From positions 1 to 64,000 of the forward strand of contig NZ_JAPVQY010000002.1 of NCBI RefSeq assembly GCF_027257875.1: a DNA stretch of 64,000 nt, written 5' to 3'. The notes below the pieces were generated by a model that was not told the DNA's origin, searched no databases, and worked only from the letters and a program-made list of their open reading frames with translations. The DNA is from Burkholderia sp. IMCC1007 (GTDB taxonomy: Bacteria > Pseudomonadota > Gammaproteobacteria > Burkholderiales > Burkholderiaceae). Below are positions 23,553 through 29,128 of this stretch, piece by piece. The first letter of the stretch is position 1; each line of letters begins with the position of its first letter. A program made the position numbers and the translations under genes.

Positions 23553-24359
23553 TTATGCTGCTGCGGGCAGCGACGCGAGCGCATCCAGCGCGCCGTCGAT
23601 CATCCGGCGCAGCGTCGGCTGCACGGCGGCTGCGCGCGCGGCATCGTAGTCGAACGGCTCGGCCTCGCTCATGTACGTCGACTGGCACATCTCGAGCTGG
23701 ACCGCATGCACGCCGCGCGCCGGGTCGCCGAACCGGCGGGTGATGTAGCCTCCCTTGAAGCGGCCGTTGGCAACCGACGTGAACGGGCTCGCGGCGGCCG
23801 CACGCACCACCGCGGCCTGCACGGCCGGCGCAGCGGTGCGGCCGTCCTGGGTGCCGATGTTCAGGTCGGGCAGCTTGCCGTCGAACAGCCGCGGCAGCAC
23901 GCTCGCGATCGAATGCGCGTCCCATAGCAGCACATGCCCGTGACGCACGCGCAGGCGCGCCAGCTCGGCTTCGAGCGTCGCGTGATACGGCTGCCAGTAC
24001 GCGGCCACACGACGCGCCTTCTCCTGTGCGTCGGGCGCGCGCCCCGCCCGGTACAGCGGATCGCCACGAAACGTTTCGCCCGGGCACAGGCCGGTCGTCG
24101 TCTGCCCCGGATACAAGCTCTCGTCGTTCGGCGGACGATTGAGGTCGATCACGTAGCGCGACACGCGCGCGCCGAGCACGGTTGCGCCGAGTTCCGACGC
24201 GAACGCGTAAAGGCGATCGAGATGCCAGTCGGTATCGGCGAGCGTCAGCGCGTCGTCGGTGTACGCGTCGCGCAGCGGCTCGGGAATCTCCGTGCCGAGG
24301 TGCGGAATCGATATCATCAGCGGCGCGTCGCCGCGTTGCAGCGTATAGAGGTCGCTCAC
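23553..24359 (-). CDS. hutG: N-formylglutamate amidohydrolase
   Basis: This 268-residue HutG-family enzyme hydrolyses N-formyl-L-glutamate to formate and glutamate. Family features are ISIPHLGTEIPE, DTDWHLDRLYAFA, VSRYVIDLNRPPN, DAHSIASVLPRLFDGKLPD and VHAVQLEMCQSTYM. In histidine degradation it is the last step of the five-step route, but no hutH, hutU, hutI or hutF is present in this window. It lies 17 bp downstream of a LysR gene on the same strand, inside the methylamine cluster. Here the substrate may come from oxidation of N-methylglutamate, which is an inference. Confidence 0.9.
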   Translation of the reverse strand: MSDLYTLQRGDAPLMISIPHLGTEIPEPLRDAYTDDALTLADTDWHLDRLYAFASELGATVLGARVSRYVIDLNRPPNDESLYPGQTTTGLCPGETFRGDPLYRAGRAPDAQEKARRVAAYWQPYHATLEAELARLRVRHGHVLLWDAHSIASVLPRLFDGKLPDLNIGTQDGRTAAPAVQAAVVRAAAASPFTSVANGRFKGGYITRRFGDPARGVHAVQLEMCQSTYMSEAEPFDYDAARAAAVQPTLRRMIDGALDALASLPAAA

Positions 24360-24376
24360 TCAGGGCTCCATATGAA

Positions 24377-25342
24377 TCAAAGCAATGCGTCGTCGGGCAG
24401 TTGCGGCAGGCTGCGCGCGAGCGCGGGCCGGATCGAGCGCTCCACCACGGTTCGCGTCAGCGCGACGATCTCGCCGACGAAGTCCTCCCACTCTCCCTGC
24501 CGGTGCAACAGAAAGAAATCCCGCCGCCCGAGCCGCCCGGACGGCAGCGGGATCACGGCGATCTCGCCGAGGTAATGGCGCGCCTGCCACAGACACAGCG
24601 GCGTCGAGATCGCAAAGCCGACGCGCGCGGTCACGAGACTCAGCAGCGGGTCCGTCGCATCGAACTCGAAGCGTCTCGGACTATCGATGCCGAGGTGACG
24701 CGCGAAGCGCTCCACCTGCTGACCGATCACCGAGCGCGCCGTGTAGCGGATCAGCGGCAGCTCGCCGGCAAGCGCGCGCCAGTCGAGCGTCGGCCGCCCC
24801 GCCAGATGGCTGCGCGCGACGACGGCAACGAACGCCTCCGAAAACAGCGGCACCTCGACGATGCGTGCATCCGTGAGCGCCGTCTGCGTACACACCGCGA
24901 CATCCAGTTCCCGGTCGTGCATTTGTCTGGAGAGTCCCGGCGTGAGGCCGGACCACATCGAAATCTGCCGCGACGCGCCCGACACCGCGCGGATCAGCTC
25001 CGGCCCGACCGTCGCCGCGAACGAATCGACGCAGCCCAGCCGCACCGGCATGCGGCCGGCATCGGACGCGTCGCCGACGCGCGTGCTGACCATCTGCGCA
25101 TGCTCGAGCAGCGGGCCGGCGAGTTCGAGCAACGCGCGCCCGGCCGGATTCGGCCGCGGCGGGCGGCTATCGCGATCGAACAGCGCGGTGCCGTGCTCGC
25201 GCTCGAGCGTCGCGATCGACTGGCTGATCGCGCTCTGGCTCACGCCGATGCGCTTCGCGGCGGCAGTCATCGAGCCGGATTCGCACACGGCGACGAACGC
25301 CTGCAGCGCGCGCAGATCGATTGGCGGTGGGGTGCGTCTCAT
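24377..25342 (-). CDS. LysR-family transcriptional regulator
   Basis: This 321-residue regulator has an N-terminal winged helix (IDLRALQAFVAVCESGSMTA, then KRIGVSQSAISQSIATLE) and a substrate-binding domain. ATG 25342 (MRRTPPPID) has GGAGAAGCA upstream; the longer frame is not LysR-like. It is divergent from the FAD dehydrogenase-ETF operon starting at 25528 and precedes hutG. The usual LysR arrangement suggests it activates the divergent operon. The 185-bp shared region holds an AT-rich stretch (ATAAGTTTGCCTAATAC) that may be its site. Confidence 0.88.
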   Translation of the reverse strand: MRRTPPPIDLRALQAFVAVCESGSMTAAAKRIGVSQSAISQSIATLEREHGTALFDRDSRPPRPNPAGRALLELAGPLLEHAQMVSTRVGDASDAGRMPVRLGCVDSFAATVGPELIRAVSGASRQISMWSGLTPGLSRQMHDRELDVAVCTQTALTDARIVEVPLFSEAFVAVVARSHLAGRPTLDWRALAGELPLIRYTARSVIGQQVERFARHLGIDSPRRFEFDATDPLLSLVTARVGFAISTPLCLWQARHYLGEIAVIPLPSGRLGRRDFFLLHRQGEWEDFVGEIVALTRTVVERSIRPALARSLPQLPDDALL

Positions 25343-27528: not shown

Positions 27529-28469
27529 GAACGCTCGTTGTCGCAGAAGCGACCGCCGACGGCACGCTCGCCGATGCGGTGCGTCGCGTGGTCAGCGCCG
27601 CGTGCGCGCGCCGACAGCCGGTCGACGTGCTGGCGCTCGATCCCGCGGCGGCGTCCGAGGCGGCGCTGATCGACGGCGTGGACGCGGTCATCCGCCCGGA
27701 CGCGCAACACGCAGCGGCCGCGATCACGCCCGAAGATCTCGCCGCGCAGCTCGCCGCACTCGCGCCGCGCTACGCGCTGATCGCGGCCGCGCATCGCACG
27801 CTCGGCCGCAATGCACTGCCGCGCGCCGCCGCGCTTGCCGATGCGGCGTTCGTCGCCGACGTGACCGGCATCGCCGACGACGGCAGCTTCGTGCGCGGGC
27901 TGTATGCGGGGAGCGTCGTCGCGACGGTGACCAGCGCGCGCGACACGACCTTCGTGACGGTGCGCGCGTCGTCGTTCGCGCCGGCCGGCGTCCGCACGGC
28001 ACCGGCCGCGATCGTGCCGCTTGCCGCGCCACCCGCGTTCGCCGCGACGACGCTGCTGGAACGGCACGGCGCGCAGTCGAGCGGCATCGATCTCGCGAAT
28101 GCGCCGATCGTCGTGTCGGGCGGGCGCGGTCTCGCATCGGGCGAGAACATGGCACGGCTCGGCGCGCTCGCGGCACGGCTCGGCGCTGCGCTCGGCGCAT
28201 CGCGCGCGGCCGTCGACGCGGGCTACGCGCCGAACGCGATCCAGGTCGGGCAGACCGGCAAGACCGTTGCGCCCGACGTCTATCTCGCGTTCGGGATTTC
28301 CGGCGCGGTGCAGCACCTCGCGGGGATGAAGGATTCAAAGCTCATCGTCGCCGTCAACAAGGACCCGGACGCGCCGATCTTTTCGCTCGCGGACGTCGGC
28401 TTCGTCGGCGACCTGTTCGACGTGATGGCCGCGCTCGAGCGTCACGTCGGTGCAGGAGGTCGCGCATGA
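27525..28469 (+). CDS. etfA: Electron transfer flavoprotein alpha subunit
   Basis: This 314-residue ETF alpha chain has the C-terminal FAD signature (VGQTGKTVAPDVYLAFGISG, then AVQHLAGMKDSKLIVAVNKD) and the preceding VVSGGRGLASGENM. It forms the heterodimer with EtfB, taking electrons from the amine dehydrogenase and passing them to ETF-QO. ATG 27525 and its ATGA overlap with etfB fix the start. The 3' end overlaps hutD by ATGA, so the operon is tightly coupled. Confidence 0.93.
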   Translation: MRTLVVAEATADGTLADAVRRVVSAACARRQPVDVLALDPAAASEAALIDGVDAVIRPDAQHAAAAITPEDLAAQLAALAPRYALIAAAHRTLGRNALPRAAALADAAFVADVTGIADDGSFVRGLYAGSVVATVTSARDTTFVTVRASSFAPAGVRTAPAAIVPLAAPPAFAATTLLERHGAQSSGIDLANAPIVVSGGRGLASGENMARLGALAARLGAALGASRAAVDAGYAPNAIQVGQTGKTVAPDVYLAFGISGAVQHLAGMKDSKLIVAVNKDPDAPIFSLADVGFVGDLFDVMAALERHVGAGGRA

Positions 28470-29128
28470 CAGCGCTGCAATTCGCAGACGGCGCGGTCGG
28501 AACGCCGGCCGCCGTCGAGCGCGCAGCGGGCGGCCGACCGGCGTCGCGCTATCCGTCCGTGCAGTTCATCGACTGCAACAGGATCGCGCCCGAATCGTGG
28601 GCGAACGGCAGCGGCGTCACGCGGACGATCGCGAGCCGCACCGGCGCCGACGGCGAGATCGACTGGCGGATCAGTCTCGCGACGCTCGACGGGCCGGCCC
28701 GCTTCTCGCGGTTTCCTGGAATCGATCGCCAGCTCGTGCCGGTCGACGACACGAGCGTCGAACTGCATGCGCAGGACGGACACCTGATCGCGCGCCCGAC
28801 CGAGCCCGCGCAGTTCCCCGGCGAGCTGCAGATATGGACGAGCGGCATCGCGCGGCCGACGCACGTGCTGAACGTGATGACGCGCCGCGCCGCGTGCCGC
28901 GCGACCGTCGTCGTGGCGACGCATTCGTGCCGCGTCACGCCGGCGTCGACGCATCTGCTGATCTGCGCGGCGGGTCAGTGGCGCATCGGCAGCGCGCTGC
29001 TAAGCACGCAGGCGCTGCTGCCCATGCATGGCATGTGGCTCGATGGCCGAGGCGAGGAACTCGAGCTGAAGTCCACCGGCCCCGAATCCAGGCTGATCTC
29101 GATCGCGATCGCGCCGGCCGTTCGATAA
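28466..29128 (+). CDS. hutD: HutD-family protein
   Basis: This 220-residue HutD homologue has a bicupin-like fold with features RIAPESWANGSGVTRTIAS, WRISLATLDGPARFSRFPGI and the terminal APAVR region. HutD is linked to histidine utilisation and, as I recall, has been reported to bind N-formylglutamate and limit pathway flux. The gene overlaps etfA by ATGA and precedes ETF-QO in a methylamine operon. Its presence with HutG, without other Hut enzymes, argues that formylglutamate matters in this pathway. The role is inferred. Confidence 0.85.
   Translation: MTALQFADGAVGTPAAVERAAGGRPASRYPSVQFIDCNRIAPESWANGSGVTRTIASRTGADGEIDWRISLATLDGPARFSRFPGIDRQLVPVDDTSVELHAQDGHLIARPTEPAQFPGELQIWTSGIARPTHVLNVMTRRAACRATVVVATHSCRVTPASTHLLICAAGQWRIGSALLSTQALLPMHGMWLDGRGEELELKSTGPESRLISIAIAPAVR

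Follow-up and report, generated by a model that had tools for sequence, protein, structure and literature searches.

The window analysed here, the 64-kb start of contig NZ_JAPVQY010000002.1 within the 8.57-Mb genome of Burkholderia sp. IMCC1007, carries hutG and hutD genes whose neighbourhood is a methylated-amine cluster. Gene names in the window rest on NCBIfam and Pfam profile scans. HutG, a predicted N-formylglutamate deformylase (TIGR02017; 23,553–24,359, reverse strand), begins 17 bp after the stop of a LysR-type regulator in the same orientation (PF00126, PF03466; 24,377–25,343, start possibly as far as 25,483, reverse strand). On the forward strand follow a DAO-type flavoprotein (PF01266; 25,528–26,712), which we propose to be an N-methylglutamate dehydrogenase linked to electron-transfer flavoprotein (ETF), the ETF subunits beta (etfB, PF01012; 26,740–27,528) and alpha (etfA, PF00766 and PF01012; 27,525–28,469), HutD (PF05962; 28,466–29,128) and ETF-quinone oxidoreductase (ETF-QO, PF05187 and PF21162; 29,177–30,850). 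ATGA overlaps join etfB to etfA (27,525–27,528) and etfA to hutD (28,466–28,469), so the initial annotation, made from the sequence alone, was right that HutD is tied into the etf operon.

The methylamine genes proper lie on the other side of HutG, all on the reverse strand. They comprise GmaS, a predicted gamma-glutamylmethylamide synthetase (TIGR03105, 633.2 bits versus a cut-off of 469.6; 21,102–22,511), and proteins resembling the three parts of N-methylglutamate synthase (MGS): an MgsA-like glutamine amidotransferase domain (PF13522; 20,181–21,089), an MgsB-like GXGXG protein whose start is not fixed (PF01493; 19,504–20,166) and an MgsC-like FMN glutamate-synthase domain (PF01645; 18,126–19,478). 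No MGS-specific model exists, and MgsABC was recognized by domain content, with GATase, GXGXG and Glu_synthase in three neighbouring genes. Genes for the upstream amine steps fill a block on the forward strand (30,894–45,305; NCBIfam, Pfam) with a trimethylamine N-oxide (TMAO) permease, dimethylamine-monooxygenase-like genes, a GcvT-like protein, purU, folD, a trimethylamine (TMA) monooxygenase and a TMAO demethylase.

Both histidine-type genes are extra copies. The window HutG scores 362.9 bits against TIGR02017, above the equivalog threshold of 278.75, and 258.6 bits against PF05013, and HutD scores 106.1 bits against PF05962 (cut-off 25). Searches of the window with queries from the same genome (tblastn, 1e-4) returned one match each for hutG and hutD and none for hutH, hutC, hutU, hutI or hutF, in agreement with the initial annotation, which had HutG and HutD standing here without hutH, hutU, hutI or hutF. 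A complete operon, hutH-C-U-D-I-F-G, lies on contig C101 of the same genome (six of the seven genes named by NCBIfam models, HutD by Pfam) and holds the only further HutG and HutD, which share 54% and 36% identity, respectively, with those of the window. The histidine pathway of the host should therefore manage without the window copies. This second operon, like the sister loci lacking gmaS and MGS described below, was invisible to an annotation that saw only the sequence.

HutG and HutD accompany the flavoprotein across many genomes. We scanned a genome collection for the flavoprotein and kept the best 80 of 552 loci, some of which end at contig ends. Six-frame searches of these 80 found HutD in 66, HutG in 51, LysR in 58, etfB in 67, etfA in 68, ETF-QO in 34 and gmaS in 37, with hutF, hutI and hutU in none, an association of HutG and HutD with the flavoprotein that exceeds chance. 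Where at least 8 kb was available on both sides (n = 50), HutD was present in 39 and HutG in 34. Typing of 86 of 87 flavoproteins (after a length filter) accompanied three recurrent arrangements: type A, the window type (≥83% identity), with gmaS-mgs almost always adjoining; a Hydrogenophaga/Aquabacterium form, which also has gmaS-mgs and in which etfBA is often not directly adjoining; and type B, about 72% identical to the window protein and mostly without gmaS-mgs. Across the genus, the window-type flavoprotein has a scattered distribution (≥92% identity in 6 of 37 genomes, the Burkholderia genome studied here included). In Caballeronia pedi, locus L073 combines a type B flavoprotein and etfBA with the surroundings of a gmaS-mgs-hutG-hutD-ETF-QO cluster, as if flavoprotein types were interchangeable.

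In a sample of MGS genomes, the loci with the flavoprotein lack the classical N-methylglutamate dehydrogenase genes (mgd). Among 300 genomes drawn evenly from the order Burkholderiales, 34 carry MgsC (E ≤ 1e-100), and the flavoprotein, called present at E ≤ 1e-120, occurs in three of these: the Burkholderia genome itself, G112 and G294. Of the other 31, SoxB/SoxA-type (mgd) genes adjoin gmaS-mgs in 27, and the contig ends too early at MGS in four (L127, L131, L132, L151); no HutG or HutD was found in any of these 31 stretches (tblastn, 1e-6). The three flavoprotein-bearing MGS loci of the draw all lack mgd (Fisher test of mgd versus flavoprotein, p = 2.5e-4, loci cut by contig ends excluded), and all three genomes have HutG, a PF05013 protein (Fisher test for any PF05013, p = 0.014); both p values are merely indications, because kinship is ignored and only three genomes stand behind them. 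About 20 kb separate the flavoprotein from the LysR-HutG pair in G112. The single SoxD of the Burkholderia genome shares an operon with L-serine ammonia-lyase (sdaA), soxB, soxA and soxG, and we therefore read that operon as sarcosine oxidase, which would leave this genome no dedicated mgd. At the level of genes, the flavoprotein stands where MgdABCD stands in other MGS clusters; that it also takes over the function is suggested by this placement.

Two genomes from outside the draw extend the picture. In Noviherbaspirillum pedocola (G063), a single 71.6-kb contig carries MGS, with no mgd, together with a flavoprotein-HutG-HutD locus; G068 has mgd beside MGS with a type B flavoprotein elsewhere. 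The N. pedocola contig (L161) also encodes, near MGS, a protein with an N,N-dimethylformamidase beta-subunit C-terminal domain (3,362–5,842).

The features of the flavoprotein itself are consistent with a dehydrogenase. Its AlphaFold model (mean pLDDT 87.6, 32-row alignment) is closest in fold to archaeal L-proline dehydrogenase (1y56_B) and to sarcosine-oxidase beta subunits (3ad7_B, 2gag_B), and it scores 127.6 bits against the soxB model, below the cut-off of 529.45. In an alignment with monomeric sarcosine oxidase (MSOX, Lys265Met mutant), it shows Leu265 at the position of Lys265, the oxygen-activating residue, and Gly315 at that of Cys315, the covalent FAD link; Arg51 and Lys348, whose counterparts bind the substrate carboxylate, are preserved. 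The leucine, the kept arginine and lysine and the etf genes in the same operon fit an ETF-linked dehydrogenase acting on an N-methyl amino acid. Compared with sarcosine oxidase beta and with L-proline and dimethylglycine dehydrogenases, the protein shares the fold and the Arg and Lys positions and differs in the Leu and Gly residues, the sub-cut-off soxB score, the want of a folate domain and the ETF partnership indicated by gene order. We reject folate-linked handling by the flavoprotein itself, since a Pfam scan found PF01266, a weak Rossmann match inside it and no folate-binding domain. SoxA from the same genome, the SoxA-type subunit of the heterotetrameric relative, does contain a GcvT part, unlike the flavoprotein. 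The window has no soxD or soxG match, and its soxA matches are confined to the GcvT parts of two other proteins.

HutG persists in flavoprotein-bearing genomes in which urocanate hydratase was not found. Urocanate hydratase (hutU, TIGR01228) was searched in 31 genomes, 25 of them flavoprotein-bearing (the search covered hutU alone); of these 25, 16 have it, and it was not found in nine (G294, G112, G063, G064, G071, G073, G074, G075, G076), nor in the six mgd-type genomes searched. All nine have HutG: at the flavoprotein locus in six, on the same contig 20–30 kb off in two (G112, G076), and beside hutF instead in G074. Two of the nine are rated 98–99% complete and G071 is a 2.2-Mb metagenome-assembled genome (MAG); completeness is not given for the others. 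The initial annotation had held that a need for these genes only in histidine use would refute its proposal, and genomes that keep HutG without urocanate hydratase contradict such a restriction.

Comparison of HutG lineages points to the substrate. Hut-operon HutGs form one supported group in the tree, separate from flavoprotein-linked HutGs. Four groups were compared (9 hut-type, 20 type A, 9 Hydrogenophaga-like and 31 others, with L203 left out and L202 placed as hut-type by tree position only), and 81 of 268 positions agree across them, each in at least 85–90% of the members of every group, among them H20, D42, D44, H46, H126, H149 and E223 as well as R68, R75, R117, R157, R200, K202 and R208; eleven positions are group-specific. 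In G356 (L236), G377 (L237) and G375 (L238), the HutG beside hutF is 72–75% identical to the window HutG and just 48–52% identical to the hut-operon HutG of the Burkholderia genome. These three join the type A clade of the window (100/99). Constraining them to group with the hut HutGs lowers the log-likelihood by 67 units, with a p-AU of 3e-5 that is post hoc because the BLAST comparison preceded the choice of the group; L203, L074 and L185, long branches in an earlier tree, were omitted from this constraint tree. Two of the three swap loci also show hutU, hutI and hutD, and the third hutD and hutF only. Judged by this position, HutG of the window lineage very likely performs the step on the HutF product, N-formylglutamate hydrolysis, in these three genomes, which points to N-formylglutamate as the substrate in the amine cluster too.

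Type B loci have a different setting. PutA adjoins in 12 of 49 loci, ABC transporters are also neighbours, and six type B loci have a Rieske protein and six a proline-racemase-like gene. The best PDB matches of the Rieske protein are 4qup (‘demethylase’) and 3vca, which we take to be stachydrine demethylase. MGS was not found in 11 of 13 type B genomes searched. The type B PutA is a second, divergent copy: at least two PutA-type matches occur in 5 of 8 genomes searched, and the other copies are 44–49% identical. In type B PutAs such as those of L065, L072, L082, L084 and L096, the proline-dehydrogenase motifs are intact and the second domain is probably dead. In all 14 readable proteins (16 read, three genomes twice), Ala replaces the aldehyde-dehydrogenase Cys, which the housekeeping PutA of the Burkholderia genome retains. 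Ring opening of N-methylproline could lead through N-methylglutamate semialdehyde to N-methylglutamate, giving the flavoprotein the same substrate in both settings; with the Cys gone from type B PutA, another enzyme would be needed, and the idea that this PutA itself makes N-methylglutamate is weakened. It is equally conceivable that the type B flavoprotein acts on N-methylproline directly. In Appendix B of PMC8708696, N-methylglutamate is listed among the urinary markers for a diet that has stachydrine and N-methylproline among its leading ones; the article ascribes N-methylglutamate to plant foods, and that microbes connect the three compounds is a guess.

We propose that the cluster specifies a version of the N-methylglutamate pathway that frees no formaldehyde: its flavoprotein would make N-formylglutamate, from which its own HutG would free glutamate and formate. 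We hold this reading to be moderately likely. By family assignment, GmaS would convert methylamine and glutamate to gamma-glutamylmethylamide and MgsABC would turn this into N-methylglutamate. The flavoprotein, without a folate domain or SoxA, SoxD or SoxG partners and in the place of MgdABCD, may then oxidize the N-methyl group to an N-methylene iminium that is hydrated to a hemiaminal. A second oxidation by the same flavoprotein, from hemiaminal to N-formylglutamate, would be the weakest step. N-methylglutamate is suggested as substrate because the protein replaces mgd, and N-formylglutamate as product because HutG and HutD accompany it. The four electrons would exit through ETF and ETF-QO, and HutG, consistent with its lineage beside hutF, would hydrolyse N-formylglutamate. 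HutD of Pseudomonas binds N-formylglutamate and limits hut expression; here HutD is probably a sensor or buffer of that compound, and control of the operon probably falls to the LysR protein. HutD structures are available in the PDB (5fcc, 5v00). The remaining methyl groups of trimethylamine would pass through folate (tdm, the GcvT-like protein, FolD, PurU). More tentatively, and as a possibility we would put somewhat short of even, a four-electron DAO-family flavoprotein with a HutD partner and a HutG hydrolase may form a module for one-carbon disposal free of formaldehyde and folate, used in methylamine breakdown and, in the sister branch, in that of proline betaine.

The canonical pathway consists of GmaS, MgsABC and MgdABCD, as described in PMC5520151 and PMC5023228. 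The window shares with it the GmaS and MgsABC families, their gene order and the TMA, TMAO and dimethylamine setting, and differs in having a single-domain flavoprotein, etfBA, ETF-QO, HutG and HutD in place of the heterotetrameric sarcosine-oxidase-like MgdABCD. The five-step Hut branch through HutF and HutG has the HutG and HutD families in common with the window, besides the HutG lineage found next to hutF in three genomes; it differs in that the window lacks hutH, hutU, hutI and hutF and that N-formylglutamate would come from N-methylglutamate rather than formiminoglutamate.

Several observations weigh against the formyl route. HutG is missing from the fetched stretch in 29 of the 80 loci, a gap shared by 15 of the 31 loci of type A, and HutD is likewise missing in 14 of the 80; contig ends cut some of these stretches and not others. 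One MAG (L062, G363) has the flavoprotein and no HutG anywhere; the other 28 of the 29 genomes with a HutG-less locus carry HutG elsewhere, adjoined by hutF in 22 of the 28. In favour of the route, HutG is present in 51 of 52 flavoprotein-bearing genomes examined (the Burkholderia genome, 24 and 27 more), a weak test because these families commonly have hut operons. Against it, some PF05013 protein occurs in 6 of the 31 mgd-type genomes as well, just one of them above 200 bits, and the replacement pattern comes down to three flavoprotein genomes in a draw whose compared groups belong to different families. Stachydrine-like clusters, most of them lacking MGS, house the sister group (type B), and N-methylglutamate is therefore not the obvious substrate there. 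The claim of the initial annotation that HutG acts on methylamine-derived N-formylglutamate consequently stands in part: mgd replacement, HutG in hutU-less genomes and the lineage beside hutF speak for it, and the window-type loci without their own HutG, about half of that type, speak against it. The same loci would be explained, along with the gene association, if the flavoprotein were an N-methylglutamate dehydrogenase giving formaldehyde and glutamate, with N-formylglutamate an over-oxidized side product that HutG and HutD clean up and sense. The sarcosine-oxidase fold found for the model normally yields an iminium that hydrolyses to formaldehyde. We consider this unlikely, since genomes that lack the histidine pathway still keep HutG next to the flavoprotein, and since the folate part with which the classical enzyme handles the one-carbon unit is absent from the flavoprotein.

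It seems improbable that the substrate of the flavoprotein is a different N-methyl amino acid (N-methylproline, or a broader set), with a HutG of matching wider N-formyl range. Although the type B Rieske protein, the second PutA and the MGS-less type B genomes favour such a substrate, gmaS-mgs goes with both the window-type and the Hydrogenophaga-type loci, the same 81 HutG positions are conserved across all four groups, and in C. pedi a type B flavoprotein occupies a gmaS-mgs cluster. That HutG and HutD of the cluster serve histidine use, their location being incidental, would suit two families named after that use in a genome with histidine genes; given that the hut operon has its own copies, that the window HutG is of a different lineage and that hutU-less genomes retain HutG beside the flavoprotein, we reject it as highly improbable. 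An amidohydrolase-type enzyme adjoining GmaS might instead hydrolyse gamma-glutamylmethylamide, which would merely reverse GmaS; type B loci keep HutG in MGS-less genomes (gmaS was not searched genome-wide), the lineage also lies beside hutF, and we reject this idea too, as scarcely credible. A formyl-folate transferase was considered as the source of N-formylglutamate, and none is among the window genes scanned; no genome-wide search for one was made.

Further genes flank this core. An HTH-cupin regulator (PF01381, PF07883; 22,584–23,339, forward strand) lies between gmaS and hutG, and an amino-acid-type permease (PF00324, PF13520; 16,536–18,035, reverse strand) is a possible methylamine importer. 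Directly behind the permease, a single protein combines PP2C-phosphatase-type and Ser/Thr-kinase-type matches (14,704–16,539). A molybdoenzyme of the dimethyl sulfoxide/TMAO-reductase family and its iron-sulfur partner (45,345–49,257) stand beside the TMAO demethylase in an otherwise oxidative amine cluster.

We found no paper joining N-formylglutamate, methylamine and N-methylglutamate in the literature searched, largely without subscription journals, where the sole match for formylglutamate together with methylamine concerns a fungicide; among the matches listed for stachydrine and N-methylproline, nothing concerns a formylglutamate route. In soil and sea, methylated amines are important compounds of nitrogen and carbon. 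The aerobic routes described for them, to our knowledge, lead the methyl groups through formaldehyde or folate. If the proposed route holds, their methyl carbon would pass through N-formylglutamate to formate without toxic formaldehyde being freed, which would explain a recurring histidine enzyme in amine clusters and give HutD a candidate role outside histidine use. It would also offer a formaldehyde-free module for synthetic methylotrophy, and HutG by itself would no longer be a marker of histidine use.

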